37,769 nucleotides of DNA from a virus: positions 1-37,769 of IMG/VR virus record IMGVR_UViG_3300030580_000559; one strand, written 5' to 3'. The translations under genes and the position numbers were made by a program. Shown here one piece after another: positions 31,707 to 36,682 of the stretch (position 1 is the first letter of the stretch; the number at the start of each line of letters is the position of its first letter). The notes under the pieces were generated by a model. The model was not told where the DNA came from. It did not search any database and worked only from the letters and a program-made list of their open reading frames with translations.

Positions 31707-31952
31707 ATGAGCAAAATCACCATAAAACTAGAACTGGACGAACAACAGGCGCAGCACTACCTGTTGTGGTTGACCAGTCAGTACGAAGTCACGATGGCTG
31801 ATATTTGGTACTCCGACCGCTACCGGAATGTGCCAAGTGGTCAGCGGGCGCCGAAGGTACTTGAGGACTTGCCCTACCTGGCAGGCATCTGCAAGACGCG
31901 CACCGAGCTGAAAAAGCAGCTCGTTGTCACGGTCACGGAGCATGTGCAGTGA
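31707..31952 (+). CDS. small conserved phage protein
   Basis: 81 residues from ATG 31707 (a GTG at 31698 is possible). It begins with a beta strand (KITIKLELDEQQAQHYLLWL) and contains a basic C-terminus. No family assigned. It overlaps the primase-helicase start as GTGA, which suggests a linked replication role. Confidence 0.72.
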   Translation: MSKITIKLELDEQQAQHYLLWLTSQYEVTMADIWYSDRYRNVPSGQRAPKVLEDLPYLAGICKTRTELKKQLVVTVTEHVQ

Positions 31953-34762
31953 TTCGCAAGCCCATGGAAGACAAGATCCGCGCTGATGTACTTCAGCGCC
32001 TGGAGTCTGATTACGGCCTTCAGCACATGAAAGGCACGCATTACATGCGCAAGGGCACTTGCCCGCAGTGCAATCAGAAACGTTTGTTCTCGCGCCACGA
32101 TGAGCCCTGGTTTATCCGCTGTGGCCGCGAAGAAAAGTGCCGGTATATGGCGCCGGTCAAAGAGCTTTATCCCGATCTGTTTGACGATTGGAGCAAGCGC
32201 GCGCCGGCCACCAGCGACCAGCCTGCCGCCAGCGCCAAAGCGTACCTATCGTTTGCCCGCGGATTCCGCGTTGAGTTGATTGAGGGTTGGTACACCCAGG
32301 AAAGCTACTTCGACCGAGAGCTGGAAATCGGCTCTGCAACCGTCCGCTTTCCTCTGGAGCACGGCGGGTACTGGGAGCGCTTGATTGACCAGCCTTCCCG
32401 CTTCGGCAAGAAGAAGGCCCGTTTCCAACCCCTCAAGAGCTACAGGGGGCATTGGTGGTGCCCGCCGTGCCTGGATCTGCTTGAAGTGAAAGAGCTGTGG
32501 ATCGTTGAAGGCATCTTCGACGCCATCGCGCTAATTCAAAACGGTATCTCTGCGGTTGCGGCGCTGTCCTCAAACGCCTTTCCAGAAGAATCACTCAAGG
32601 CGCTCATCACCGCACGCGGCGGCAAAACGCCCAAGCTGGTTTGGGCTCTGGACAATGAGCCAGGCGCTCACAAGTACACCCGCACTTGGGTGAAGCGTGC
32701 CCGCGAACTTGGCTTTACTTGCGACGCTGCCCTGGTGTCACAGCCGGATGCCCGCAAGGTCGATTGGAACGATCTGCATCAGCGCTGGGCATTCATCGAC
32801 GATGAAAAGGCCCGCGCTGATCGCATCGAAAAGGACTTGAAAGAAGCCCGTCACCAGGGCGCCCTGCTGATCGCAGAGAGTGCCAGCGACAAAGCGTTGC
32901 TGATGTACCAGTGGCGTGAGCGGGAGGAATTTCACTTCTGTTTCGACTCTCGCCTGTACTGGTGGAAATTGGACCTCGCGAAATACAACAGCGCCAAACA
33001 AGCGCTGGAAAAGAGCGATGACCAGGAAACCCAGGTGCTGAACGACAAGCAGCTCCGGGAGAAAGCACTGAACGTGGCCGGGTGCGTCGTCGAAATCGCC
33101 AACTGCTATCCCAAAGCCCTCTATTTCCAGCGCAACGAGATTACCGACGAGTCCTGGTACTTCTTTCGCGTCGACTTTCCGCACGACGGTGGATCGGTGA
33201 AAAACACCTTCACCGGTGGCCAGGTTGCCGCCGCCAGCGAATTCAAAAAAAGACTTCTCGGCATGGGCGCCGGGGCCGTGTTCACCGGCAGTGGACAACA
33301 GTTGGACAAACTCATGAAAGACCAGCTTTTTGGCATTAAAACCGTTCAGACCATCGACTACGTGGGGTACAGCAAGGAGTACCGCTGCTACGTATTCAAC
33401 GACGTCGCTATTCGCGAAGGCCAAGTCGTCAACATCAACGAAGAGGAGTTCTTTGAAATGGGCAAGCTCAAGCTCAAAACACTGCAAAAGGGGGTAAAAA
33501 TCGAACTGGAGAAAGACGGTAAAACGTACGATCCGCAGTGGTTGGGCCTGCTCTGGCAGTGCTTCGGCGCCCAAGGCATCGTGGCTCTCACCTTCTGGTT
33601 TGGCTCGTTGTTCGCCGAGCAGATCCGTGGCCGCTACCAGTCGTTTCCGTTCCTTGAAGCCACAGGCGAAGCCGGCGCCGGCAAGACCACACTGCTCACA
33701 CTTCTGTGGAAACTCGAAGGCCGTGACGGTTACGAAGGGTTTGACCCGTCCAAATCCACCAAGGCCGGCCGCAGCCGTTTAATGGGCCAGGTATCCGGCA
33801 TGCCAATCGTGCTGTTGGAGTCAGACCGCAGCGGCGACGACAAGGCCCACGCCAAAACCTTCGAATGGGACGAACTCAAGGATTACTACGGCGGTGGCAC
33901 CCTGGCGACCAAGGGCGTTAAAACCGCCGGCAACGAAACCTACGAACCACCGTTTCGCGGCACCATTGCTATCAGTCAGAACGCCCCTGTTGTGGCGTCA
34001 GAGGCGATCATGACCCGGATCGTCAAACTGCACTTTGTTCGGCCGAACGTGACAGCTGAAAGCCGCGCGGCGGCAGATCGGCTCAACGCACTGGAAGGCT
34101 CGACGCTCAGCAATTTTGTTTTGCAGGCCGTGCGTAAAGAGCTGGAAGTGATGGAGCTTTTCGCCCAGCGCATACCCGGCTACGAGGCAAAGTTGCGCAA
34201 CCTGCACTCCCACTGCTTTGCCTGTGAGACCCCATTCAAGGACGAGCAAAGCGACTGTAGCCATTGCGGCAACAAGCTACGCGGCTACATCCGCGTGGAG
34301 CGAATCAACAAGAACCACGCCCAGATGCTTGCTCTGCTCGACTGCCTGCGCATGGTGGTACCGCTCACTGAACCGCAGATCAGTCACACCCGCACGCAGA
34401 TTATTCGCATGGCTATCGAGCGCCAGTCCTCAATCAGCTCTGACCATCCGGTGGTGGCTGAATTTTGGGAAGTCTACGAGTACCTGGAAGGCCTCGACGC
34501 CGATGGCCCAGTGGTCAACCACAGCAAGAAAGACAACGTCATCGCCATCAACCTCAACGACTTTGTGAAGTGCGCCGCCGAGCACCGCCAGAAAATTGCC
34601 GACGTCAGCGAGTTGCGTGAGCGGTTGAAGGACTCCCGCTCCCGGAAGCTGCTCGACGTGAACAAGGCGACAGACAGCGCGGTACGGGCTCACCAGGCCA
34701 AGAACAGCAATGCCACCGTCACCAAGCAGCCCATCGTGAAGTGCTGGCACTTCCAGGCCTGA
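31949..34762 (+). CDS. TOPRIM primase-helicase, replication protein
   Basis: 937 residues. An N-terminal zinc finger (C38, C41, C58, C64) and a TOPRIM domain (IVEGIFDA 185-192 with E188; WALDNE 232-237) form the primase. A helicase-like NTPase follows, with Walker A GEAGAGKT (573-580) and Walker B PIVLLESD (619-626). Unusually, a second zinc ribbon (C756, C759, C770, C773) lies near the C-terminus. It is expected to prime and unwind phage DNA. It takes the place of P2 gpA, the rolling-circle endonuclease, for which no counterpart is seen. GTG 31949 is chosen with CGGAG ahead; ATG 31964 is an alternative. Confidence 0.93.
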   Translation: MIRKPMEDKIRADVLQRLESDYGLQHMKGTHYMRKGTCPQCNQKRLFSRHDEPWFIRCGREEKCRYMAPVKELYPDLFDDWSKRAPATSDQPAASAKAYLSFARGFRVELIEGWYTQESYFDRELEIGSATVRFPLEHGGYWERLIDQPSRFGKKKARFQPLKSYRGHWWCPPCLDLLEVKELWIVEGIFDAIALIQNGISAVAALSSNAFPEESLKALITARGGKTPKLVWALDNEPGAHKYTRTWVKRARELGFTCDAALVSQPDARKVDWNDLHQRWAFIDDEKARADRIEKDLKEARHQGALLIAESASDKALLMYQWREREEFHFCFDSRLYWWKLDLAKYNSAKQALEKSDDQETQVLNDKQLREKALNVAGCVVEIANCYPKALYFQRNEITDESWYFFRVDFPHDGGSVKNTFTGGQVAAASEFKKRLLGMGAGAVFTGSGQQLDKLMKDQLFGIKTVQTIDYVGYSKEYRCYVFNDVAIREGQVVNINEEEFFEMGKLKLKTLQKGVKIELEKDGKTYDPQWLGLLWQCFGAQGIVALTFWFGSLFAEQIRGRYQSFPFLEATGEAGAGKTTLLTLLWKLEGRDGYEGFDPSKSTKAGRSRLMGQVSGMPIVLLESDRSGDDKAHAKTFEWDELKDYYGGGTLATKGVKTAGNETYEPPFRGTIAISQNAPVVASEAIMTRIVKLHFVRPNVTAESRAAADRLNALEGSTLSNFVLQAVRKELEVMELFAQRIPGYEAKLRNLHSHCFACETPFKDEQSDCSHCGNKLRGYIRVERINKNHAQMLALLDCLRMVVPLTEPQISHTRTQIIRMAIERQSSISSDHPVVAEFWEVYEYLEGLDADGPVVNHSKKDNVIAINLNDFVKCAAEHRQKIADVSELRERLKDSRSRKLLDVNKATDSAVRAHQAKNSNATVTKQPIVKCWHFQA

Positions 34763-34783
34763 CGGGGCACCAGCAGTACCTAC

Positions 34784-34821
34784 CAGGCGCTGCAACGTCT
34801 GCCACCCAAAGGAGAAGCACC
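34784..34821 (+). promoter_or_regulatory. repeated leader, copy 1: CTGCAA-loop hairpin plus Shine-Dalgarno
   Basis: Stem CAGGCG (34784-34789), loop CTGCAA, stem CGTCTG (34796-34801, one G-U pair), then CCACCCAAAGGAGAAGCACC up to ATG 34822. The loop and Shine-Dalgarno block recur at 35148 and 35697 while the stem sequence changes but stays paired. Confidence 0.75.
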
Positions 34822-35133
34822 ATGCACATACAAGTCATCACAGGCGAGGGTCAGGACGGCGCCACGAAGCAGCTCAAACATTTGAAGGAATTGCATGAGT
34901 GGATCGGCGAAGCAACCCAGCTGGTTCATGCCGAAGCCTACGACCCATCCGGCCTGGTCGCGATCCTGGAGGTTCGTGCAGTAAACGAGAAAGAAATCCT
35001 AGTGCTGGAGTGCAGCCGGGAACAGATCCAGGCAGTCCTGGAATGGCAGTCAGCAACGGATGAAGTTGTTGAGTTTGAAAACCTGCTGCTGCACCTGGTG
35101 CGGAAGCAAAACCCAACCGGCGAAAGCCAGTAA
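34822..35133 (+). CDS. hypothetical protein behind leader copy 1
   Basis: 103 residues, acidic, alpha/beta (MHIQVITGEGQDGATKQLKH, IGEATQLVHAEAYDPSGLVA). No family assigned. AAAGGAG is at an ideal distance from ATG 34822. First of three small genes that share the hairpin leader, downstream of the primase. Confidence 0.78.
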   Translation: MHIQVITGEGQDGATKQLKHLKELHEWIGEATQLVHAEAYDPSGLVAILEVRAVNEKEILVLECSREQIQAVLEWQSATDEVVEFENLLLHLVRKQNPTGESQ

Positions 35134-35147
35134 GAAGGTGGTGCCGA

Positions 35148-35191
35148 GGGGCTGCAACCCCCCGACACCGACCACCCAAAGGAGAAGCACC
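35148..35191 (+). promoter_or_regulatory. repeated leader, copy 2
   Basis: Stem GGGG (35148-35151), loop CTGCAA (35152-35157), stem CCCC (35158-35161), then a 16-base spacer to AAAGGAG and the block CCACCCAAAGGAGAAGCACC (35172-35191) identical to copy 1, ending at ATG 35192. Confidence 0.75.
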
Positions 35192-35464
35192 ATGCAAGTG
35201 AATCAACCCAAAGGCGGCACCGTAGAGGCTACCACAGCTCCACTCGCTGTCGGTGACAAGGTCAGTTATGTCGCAATGAGCGGTGGCGGCCGGGAATACC
35301 GGCTCAGCGCTCGTACAGGCGTGATCATAGGGATCGATGGCAACGTCGCCACCTTGCGCGCCGCCAACGGTCGCAGCGTTACGCAGCCACTCCACAAGCT
35401 GACGCCAGACGGCCTGCCCAATGCACTGACACGCATGCTCATGGGGGGCAGTGATCATGCATAA
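35192..35464 (+). CDS. hypothetical protein behind leader copy 2, probable small beta barrel
   Basis: 90 residues. The segment VGDKVSYVAMSGGGREYRLS, then TGVIIGIDGNVATLRAANGR, looks like an SH3/KOW-type beta barrel, suggesting nucleic-acid binding by analogy only. It overlaps the next gene by eight bases. Confidence 0.75.
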   Translation: MQVNQPKGGTVEATTAPLAVGDKVSYVAMSGGGREYRLSARTGVIIGIDGNVATLRAANGRSVTQPLHKLTPDGLPNALTRMLMGGSDHA

Positions 35465-35675
35465 ACGCACCAGCCCCGAGCGTGAGCGCCCCACGATGGC
35501 CAGCCACCGGCTGGACCTGCCGAGCCGCTGCGATATCTGCGGCAACGCGCGCTCTACCCGTAAGCACCGAGCCTGTAGCCGTATCCGCCAGCAGCGTAAA
35601 ACAGCGGAGTGGGCTGCATTCATGGCCGAACGTGAAGCGGCCAAACAAAACAAACCGCATCGATACGCGCACTGA
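35457..35675 (+). CDS. small Cys/His-rich basic protein
   Basis: 72 residues, very basic. CDICGNARSTRKHRAC contains C-X2-C then H/C, a possible zinc-binding motif, followed by an Arg/Lys-rich helix. Starts inside the end of the preceding gene (ATG 35457; GTG 35451 possible). Its character suggests DNA or RNA binding. Confidence 0.72.
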   Translation: MHKRTSPERERPTMASHRLDLPSRCDICGNARSTRKHRACSRIRQQRKTAEWAAFMAEREAAKQNKPHRYAH

Positions 35676-35696
35676 TACCCAATACAGGCGGAGCAC

Positions 35697-35737
35697 GGGG
35701 AGCTGCAACTCCCCCACCGTCTCAAAGGAGAAGCACC
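35697..35737 (+). promoter_or_regulatory. repeated leader, copy 3
   Basis: Stem GGGGAG (35697-35702), loop CTGCAA (35703-35708), stem CTCCCC (35709-35714), a perfect 6-bp hairpin, then 9 bases to AAAGGAGAAGCACC and ATG 35738. Stem differs from copies 1 and 2 but remains fully paired. Confidence 0.78.
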
Positions 35738-36148
35738 ATGCATCCCAATCAAATCCAAAGCGATCCCAAAACTATCTACCCTTACGAAAAGTCCGGTCCG
35801 ATATCGGCACCACTAGAGCTAACTGCGGATCTTCGGTACATCCTCGGCCTTCCTCACAGCAGGTTAGCCATTACAGTCCAACAACTGCGGCATTTGGGTC
35901 ACTGTATTGGGGAGCGTAGTGAAGATGAACAGGCTTCAGTTGTCCATTGGATGCTCGGCCACTACCTTCGCCATGGCTTGCATTGGAGGTTATTCGCTTA
36001 CCGCGAAATCAACATAAACGATGACTTTCTGGGATTTCCGGGAGACGAAGCACTATCGGAAGACGCGACCGAGCAAGAATGCCCCAAATGCTCCGCCATG
36101 ACCTTTGGCTCATGCGATGACTGCTACGCCGCGAGGGGTGGGGTATGA
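35738..36148 (+). CDS. hypothetical protein with C-terminal zinc ribbon, behind leader copy 3
   Basis: 136 residues. The C-terminus CPKCSAMTFGSCDDC has two C-X2-C pairs, a likely zinc ribbon. The body (LAITVQQLRHLGHCIGERSE) is helical. ATGA overlap with the next gene. Function unknown. Confidence 0.75.
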   Translation: MHPNQIQSDPKTIYPYEKSGPISAPLELTADLRYILGLPHSRLAITVQQLRHLGHCIGERSEDEQASVVHWMLGHYLRHGLHWRLFAYREININDDFLGFPGDEALSEDATEQECPKCSAMTFGSCDDCYAARGGV

Positions 36149-36396
36149 CCGTATTCCTTCTGCTTTACCTTTGCACGGATGCGACACGAACGGATTGTCA
36201 GATGGTGAGGGCTGATAGCTGGAGCGGACCACACGCCTTCGAGCAATGCATCGACGCCGTACCAAGCCTGACCGATGCGCTGACCGCGCCCAACCGGGAG
36301 CGGCATCGCTTCGTTTGTGAAATCCAAGCCAACGCCGCGCAGCCCGCTGACCATGTCTCCCGGCCGACGCTCGTTCATCAATCGTTTAGGATGTGA
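36145..36396 (+). CDS. hypothetical protein
   Basis: 83 residues. A short hydrophobic start (MTVFLLLYLC) is too short for a secure signal peptide; four cysteines (10, 18, 35, 58) could be structural. Coupled to the preceding gene by ATGA. Function unknown. Confidence 0.68.
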   Translation: MTVFLLLYLCTDATRTDCQMVRADSWSGPHAFEQCIDAVPSLTDALTAPNRERHRFVCEIQANAAQPADHVSRPTLVHQSFRM

Positions 36397-36406
36397 GGGG
36401 AACATC

Positions 36407-36682
36407 ATGAATACAGCCTTTATCCTGATGGCCCAATACGATGGCCAGGCGATTATCTCGCTGGAGCTGGTCTGCCGGGATTACTTCACGCACCTTGCGC
36501 CGGACATGTTCCAGCGCAAGGTGATGAGTGGTCAGATCAAGTTGCCAATCACTCGCCTGGAGCCGAGCCAGAAGTCGGCGAAGGGCATCCACCTCACCGA
36601 CCTGGCCGCCTACCTCGATCTACAACGCGCAGCAGCGGTTAAAGAGCACAACCAGCTCAACGGGTTAAAACCCACCTGTTGA
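36407..36682 (+). CDS. prtN: PrtN-family activator
   Basis: 91 residues. The pattern MNTAFILMAQYDGQAIISLE, DYFTHLAPDMFQRKVMSGQI and KSAKGIHLTDLAAYLDLQRA is that of pyocin activator PrtN and its phage relatives. PrtN in P. aeruginosa turns on pyocin genes after SOS release; in this phage it may activate excision or early genes, which would restore damage inducibility despite the non-cleavable repressor. GAGGGG precedes ATG 36407. Its 3' end overlaps the convergent integrase gene by 26 bases. Confidence 0.87.
   Translation: MNTAFILMAQYDGQAIISLELVCRDYFTHLAPDMFQRKVMSGQIKLPITRLEPSQKSAKGIHLTDLAAYLDLQRAAAVKEHNQLNGLKPTC

Follow-up and report, generated by a model that had tools for sequence, protein, structure and literature searches.

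Several described systems place short hairpins next to genes in arrangements that resemble the elements reported here. The boxB sites of lambdoid phages are short hairpins with a phage-specific loop and a variable stem, each with its cognate N, and serve in transcription antitermination together with boxA, both lying upstream of terminators. Targets of CsrA/RsmA carry a hairpin loop with GGA along with the Shine-Dalgarno sequence in their leader. In integron arrays, unrelated genes, each with a variable-stem hairpin, lie beside an integrase gene, and the attC recombination point is located within the folded site. In phage Mu, the zinc-finger protein Com binds a hairpin with a hexaloop close to the start of mom, a site with the loop motif CC(N)2-3GAG and a C-G closing pair that adjoins an inhibitory structure (PMC6483171). 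The sequence CUGCAA appears in the same paper in a passing occurrence outside the reported binding motif (PMC6483171).

The modules considered here, each a hairpin followed by a spacer and a leader with Shine-Dalgarno sequence and start codon, can be set against each of these systems. As in com-mom, a phage hairpin with a 6-nt loop stands just upstream of a translation start, and a gene close by encodes a small phage zinc-finger protein. However, the module loops have a G-C closing pair, read C(T/G)(G/C)C(A/C)A and do not match CC(N)2-3GAG, there are many copies per phage, and start-site sequestration was not seen; the zinc-finger-like protein, present in many but not all module phages, is a different one from Com, with no Pfam family at threshold and no PDB fold match. 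As in boxB, the loop is phage-specific and uniform while the stem varies, for which a cognate reader would be expected, but module copies precede each start codon and no N-like gene or loop-tracking protein was found. A hairpin loop plus Shine-Dalgarno sequence in the leader recalls CsrA/RsmA targets, although the module loops lack GGA and 422 of 446 hexaloops found without constraint on the loop are CTGCAA, CGGCAA or CGCCAA. Finally, an array of unrelated genes with variable-stem hairpins beside an integrase gene is integron-like, whereas the module is much shorter and lies before the gene, homology ends after ATGCA and not in the hairpin, and the arms stay matched.

Three modules in a Pseudomonas prophage

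The window, i.e. the whole stretch of DNA analysed (IMGVR_UViG_3300030580_000559, positions 1-37,769; IMG/VR, 37,769 nt), is a P2-like (Peduoviridae) prophage of Pseudomonas. Judged by the primase region, the named phages closest to it are Pseudomonas phages including Dobby, Sirocco and vB_PaeM-D14A, the first two of which are classed as Citexvirus. The modules lie inside an accessory-gene block with the primase on one side and a convergent integrase on the other:

31949-34762, + strand: primase/helicase, 937 aa, the upstream neighbour of the module block in module-bearing P2-like phages
34784-34801, + strand: module 1 hairpin, CAGGCG, loop CTGCAA (34790-34795), CGTCTG; from sequence, with one G-U pair
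34808-34826, + strand: module 1 leader AAAGGAGAAGCACCATGCA, Shine-Dalgarno to start codon; direct repeat, exact match
34822-35133, + strand: gene 1, after module 1, 103 aa, phrog_7795
35140-35169, + strand: module 2 hairpin, GGTGCCGAGGGG, loop CTGCAA (35152-35157), CCCCCCGACACC; from sequence, fold and covariance model
35178-35196, + strand: module 2 leader AAAGGAGAAGCACCATGCA; direct repeat, exact match
35192-35464, + strand: gene 2, after module 2, 90 aa, phrog_3728
35457-35675, + strand: small basic zinc-finger-like gene (CDIC ... H-x2-C), 72 aa, phrog_10699
35697-35714, + strand: module 3 hairpin, GGGGAG, loop CTGCAA (35703-35708), CTCCCC; from sequence, fold and covariance model
35724-35742, + strand: module 3 leader AAAGGAGAAGCACCATGCA; direct repeat, exact match
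35738-36148, + strand: gene 3, after module 3, 136 aa, no family

Block genes that are started separately have a module, and genes that overlap the preceding stop codon go without one; in the window these are the zinc-finger-like gene at 35457, which overlaps gene 2 at that gene's 3' end, and the gene at 36145-36396, which overlaps the stop of gene 3. Homologues of gene 1 in other phages have a P-loop-like appearance with a weak AAA_14 match. Just before the integrase, positions 36407-36679 encode a PrtN-like pyocin activator (PF11112) that is common to many of these prophages.

The hairpins lie where the first-pass annotation had placed them, before the ATGs at 34822, 35192 and 35738, and each is matched by the covariance model (34778-34825, E 4.6e-13; 35140-35195, E 1.1e-13; 35691-35741, E 8e-13). 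The leader repeat AAAGGAGAAGCACCATGCA occurs exactly three times in the record, once 3' of each hairpin. In module 2 the inner hairpin GGGG-CTGCAA-CCCC (35148-35161) is extended by the outer stem GGTGCCGAGGGG/CCCCCCGACACC with two mismatches. Bare CTGCAA occurs 37 times in the window where 32 are expected, which is near chance, whereas the complete module, by the E values above, is far from a chance match. Modules 2 and 3 show moderate fold stability (z = -1.79 and -1.67), and module 1 with its flanks prefers another structure (z = 0.10), so that its hairpin differs from the fold predicted to have the lowest energy for this leader. Since the loop word is at chance level and the module 1 leader favours a different fold, the three copies in the window are by themselves suggestive only, and proof of the structure comes from relatives. 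A search of the whole window with Rfam 15 gave 0 matches at the gathering threshold, a lax Rfam scan of 34700-35800 gave below-threshold, chance-level matches only, and a literature search found nothing on this element.

Stem covariation and distribution of the module

A covariance-model search for modules before ATGs, which had been proposed as a check, returned 101 modules in about 31 related phages with a clear score gap, true modules scoring 36-67 bits and everything else at most 16.4 bits over the 1.16 Mb searched. In scans of IMG/VR both CTGCAA and CGGCAA were seen before the leader among the matches listed. Modules occur in 35 of 399 genomes of a Pseudomonadaceae sample, nearly always as one cluster of 1-6 modules within a few kilobases on one strand, the pattern expected of one prophage, and in 44 of 400 genomes of a second, overlapping set; strong matches in 369 genomes drawn from the class were confined to two, both also in the Pseudomonadaceae sample. 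The contigs counted came from loop- or leader-based scans and were later re-checked by less restricted searches. Gene calling was simple and kinship among phages inflates all counts, against which the independent loop switches described below are the main protection.

Among 76 distinct hairpins, any two of which differ at three or more bases, pairing is seen in 90.1% of cells compared with 64.1% after shuffling, and double changes, found in six of six stem pairs, number 113 against 37. The covariation score of 0.637 exceeds that of shuffled sets (0.175; none of 500 shuffles reaches it), a control that ignores relatedness, and also that of slid structures (0.05-0.16). The comparison with slid structures and the many types of pair observed make the stem secure; the closing pair is G-C or A-T. 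Given this strong covariation, the module is evidently an RNA (or single-strand) structure under selection, as the first-pass annotation had argued from three stems; hundreds of homologues show the covariation, and the element precedes many genes that are unrelated to each other.

A DNA or ssDNA hairpin that serves as a replication site (e.g. for primase loading) or in structure-specific recombination would be expected to covary in the same manner, and such a function would fit both the position of the block next to the primase gene and the occurrence of both loop orientations in single-module phages. It is nevertheless very improbable, since in multi-module phages the module is always in sense orientation, directly before the Shine-Dalgarno sequence and start codon, and is absent before coupled genes; moreover, unmatched arms would result from recombination within the loop, whereas the arms observed do pair. 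An intrinsic terminator was also sought: at 409 of 417 sites the 10 nt that follow the arm contain 0-2 T, with no T tract, and terminator calling in the window returned none at the modules. No promoter excess was found at the modules.

Loop identity within and between phages

The loop had been described as always CTGCAA, which does not extend beyond the window's own class: other phages use CGGCAA, CGCCAA or CTGCCA, and the loop is uniform only within a phage. A loop-unconditioned scan, in which any hexaloop was allowed, recovered 446 hairpin-leader sites in 194 phages, made up of 227 CGGCAA, 190 CTGCAA, 5 CGCCAA and otherwise scattered background. CTGCAA and CGGCAA are mixed in none of the 159 multi-module phages, while random dealing of loops gives a mean of 107.9 mixed phages and a minimum of 90 (counting any mixture). 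A second 'loop' is present in 22 of the 159, almost all of these being background sites with other leaders, in addition to two point mutants (CTGCAT, AGGCAA); one locus (L304) has CGGCAA together with one CGCCAA. The modules of one phage are not recent copies of each other, since their stems are on average 51% identical, with full identity in 1% of pairs. Among phages with a primase, 0 of 197 are mixed for loop class, and on the primase tree the class changes about 19 times compared with a shuffled mean of 39, and every change affects all modules of the phage concerned. Loop position 2 in multi-module phages is only ever T or G.

Individual loop switches can be followed. At site 1 of L248 a T-to-G change at loop position 2 has occurred while arms, spacer and leader are otherwise essentially as in its CTGCAA relatives. 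L692 has three modules, all CTGCCA, that head gene families with CGGCAA loops elsewhere, and the same gene family can have the same stem with a different loop. G040/L282 has a CTG-type backbone with many genes 92-100% identical, yet contains a block of about 2.5 kb with three CGGCAA modules that was imported as a unit. Together, these patterns strongly support selection for equal loops within a phage.

Two further observations concern the surroundings of the hairpins. Just after the primase stop in L282 (G040), a tandem duplication of about 61 bp, comprising the primase end and the site-1 hairpin, has produced two successive CGGCAA hairpins. In L496, L497, L554, L555, L556, L457 and L458 the stretch from Shine-Dalgarno to ATG is altered identically or nearly so in all modules of the respective phage, examples being AAACCACATGC, AAGCGACATGC, AAACACCATGC and AGACACCATGC.

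The genes behind the modules encode small membrane proteins, a DUF7673 protein, a P-loop-like protein, methyltransferases and others of no known kind. That they are unrelated, as first annotated, applies beyond the first codons: at most the first ~15 codons are alike, and a short MQVNQPKGG-like N-terminus is often common. In L248, divergence of the gene from its relatives begins right after ATGCA, and the leader also acts as an exchange point for genes. The earlier suggestion of a cassette leader spread by recombination is therefore true as far as it goes, but it leaves the loop rule unexplained. In its purely passive form, in which hairpin and leader spread as a homology arm for gene swaps, the hairpin's only role is to insulate the start site or make the mRNA more stable, and the loop classes are inherited block markers, this explanation would account for the sharp onset of divergence after ATGCA, for the leader and first codons common to many genes and for the movement of the three-module block in G040/L282. 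We consider it rather unlikely, as it would not explain loop unity where stems vary from gene to gene and a given gene family occurs with different loops, nor the in-place T-to-G change in L248, nor the restriction of loop position 2 to T or G in multi-module phages.

Phages with a single module behave differently. The annotation had held that neither unpaired stems nor a freely varying loop should occur in homologous phages; the stems do still pair, but in single-module relatives the loop varies freely, an observation based on about 20 loci. Smp131-like phages keep the stem gggcggtg/caccgccc and the leader, while the loop differs even among close relatives (CTGTAA, CGTCAA, CTGTCA, CTGCAA, CTGGAA, CTCCAA and TTGACG, the last being the reverse complement of CGTCAA). 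L635 and L636 share the stem and a similar leader with loops CGTCAA and TTGACG, respectively, which looks like a loop inversion inside an inverted repeat. The P2-like phage UFJF_PfPro has one module with loop TTACAG, and in the Mu-like Casadabanvirus phages (JBD30, Ab30) there is a single module, diverged and with loop TGGCCG. The latter, read as gtgccgagggg, TGGCCG, cccctcgacacc and then AAGGAGAGGAGCCATGCAA, stands before an early gene at 6104-6171 of L566 (JBD30) and in many other Casadabanvirus records. The cassette leader has evidently crossed into these unrelated transposable phages. Free loop variation in single-module phages means that the conserved property is loop equality within a phage, not one fixed sequence.

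Candidate readers of the loop

The simplest account that we infer from these patterns involves a reader, its action on RNA and control at the level of translation. According to this model, to which we give roughly even chances, the modules would be cis-acting RNA operators through which a trans-acting loop reader co-regulates translation of the accessory genes. Each separately started accessory gene or coupled pair behind the primase would carry a short hairpin in its mRNA leader that displays the hexaloop just upstream of a free Shine-Dalgarno and start region. Because all loops in one phage are identical, a single reader could act on every cistron together, setting translation (or leader processing), and the swappable genes would form an RNA regulon. 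They would be exchanged through recombination in the conserved leader, and an incoming loop would then have to match the resident ones.

Small basic proteins encoded nearby had been named as candidate binders. The zinc-finger-like protein does not bear this out, as it is missing in 7 of 30 module-bearing phages and its finger is nearly identical across loop classes. In its model a long helix accompanies a zinc-knuckle-like region, and neither a significant PDB match nor a Pfam family at threshold was found; the family (phrog_10699), which comprises two types (CDICGKARSTRKH.. and CDQCGKSRAHGNH..), is widespread in these accessory blocks. The backbone proteins CII, Ogr, 31262, 31698, primase and PrtN were likewise rejected, being 97-100% alike across classes (some of the cross-class pairs involve the minor CGCCAA class); in G040/L282, CTG-type proteins at 97-100% adjoin the block, but the modules are CGGCAA. 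No block gene universal to module-bearing phages was found, and the smallest block consists of one module, one gene and the integrase. A host factor as determinant was also rejected: on a gyrB tree of 57 hosts the loop class changes 11 times compared with 18.9 when shuffled and thus correlates with host clade, yet close hosts differ in class, and one host genome contains both CGGCAA and CGCCAA prophages. Self-kissing of the loop (UGCA) or pairing with AUGCA is impossible for CGGCAA and CGCCAA. A dedicated reader protein would have to change very frequently, because the loop varies among close single-module relatives with stem and leader unchanged.

An antisense or kissing RNA, in which the complementary strand of the modules (or of one module) pairs by its matching loop with every leader hairpin, is attractive in that a gene of its own is not needed and the loop of a single-module phage can drift freely. 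Sense and antisense would change together, leaving a single module free to drift, whereas multi-module phages would have to keep their loops equal. This would account for uniform loops in multi-module phages, for free variation and even a reverse-complemented loop (TTGACG vs CGTCAA) in single-module relatives, and for no protein or host tracking the loop. On the other hand, antisense promoters downstream of 401 module sites show no excess (best score 6.84 compared with 6.99 in shuffled sequence, none at least 9), nor do those in the window, a search that would miss promoters far from consensus, and no anti-loop words or class-diagnostic k-mers were found elsewhere in the phages. We regard this explanation as unlikely.

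Returning to operators read in trans, a more specific and decidedly tentative form is a 'loop password', in which one RNA operator would govern interchangeable accessory genes and the six-letter loop would be a swappable compatibility code, the reader being either an antisense RNA encoded by the phage itself or a factor that co-evolves rapidly. If so, a new gene would be expressed properly only when its leader loop equals the resident loop, and loop classes would partition the shared gene pool.

The natural loop switches in L248, G040/L282 and L692 are ready-made allele pairs that make the existence and identity of a reader directly testable, and the covariance model is a handle for locating accessory-gene blocks in Pseudomonas prophages. 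Taken together, leader hairpins in several copies, whose stems are specific to the gene and whose one loop is specific to the phage, suggest that accessory genes of temperate phages, possibly with defence or host-modifying functions, are controlled post-transcriptionally in a coordinated way, a layer of control that has rarely been described for tailed phages.
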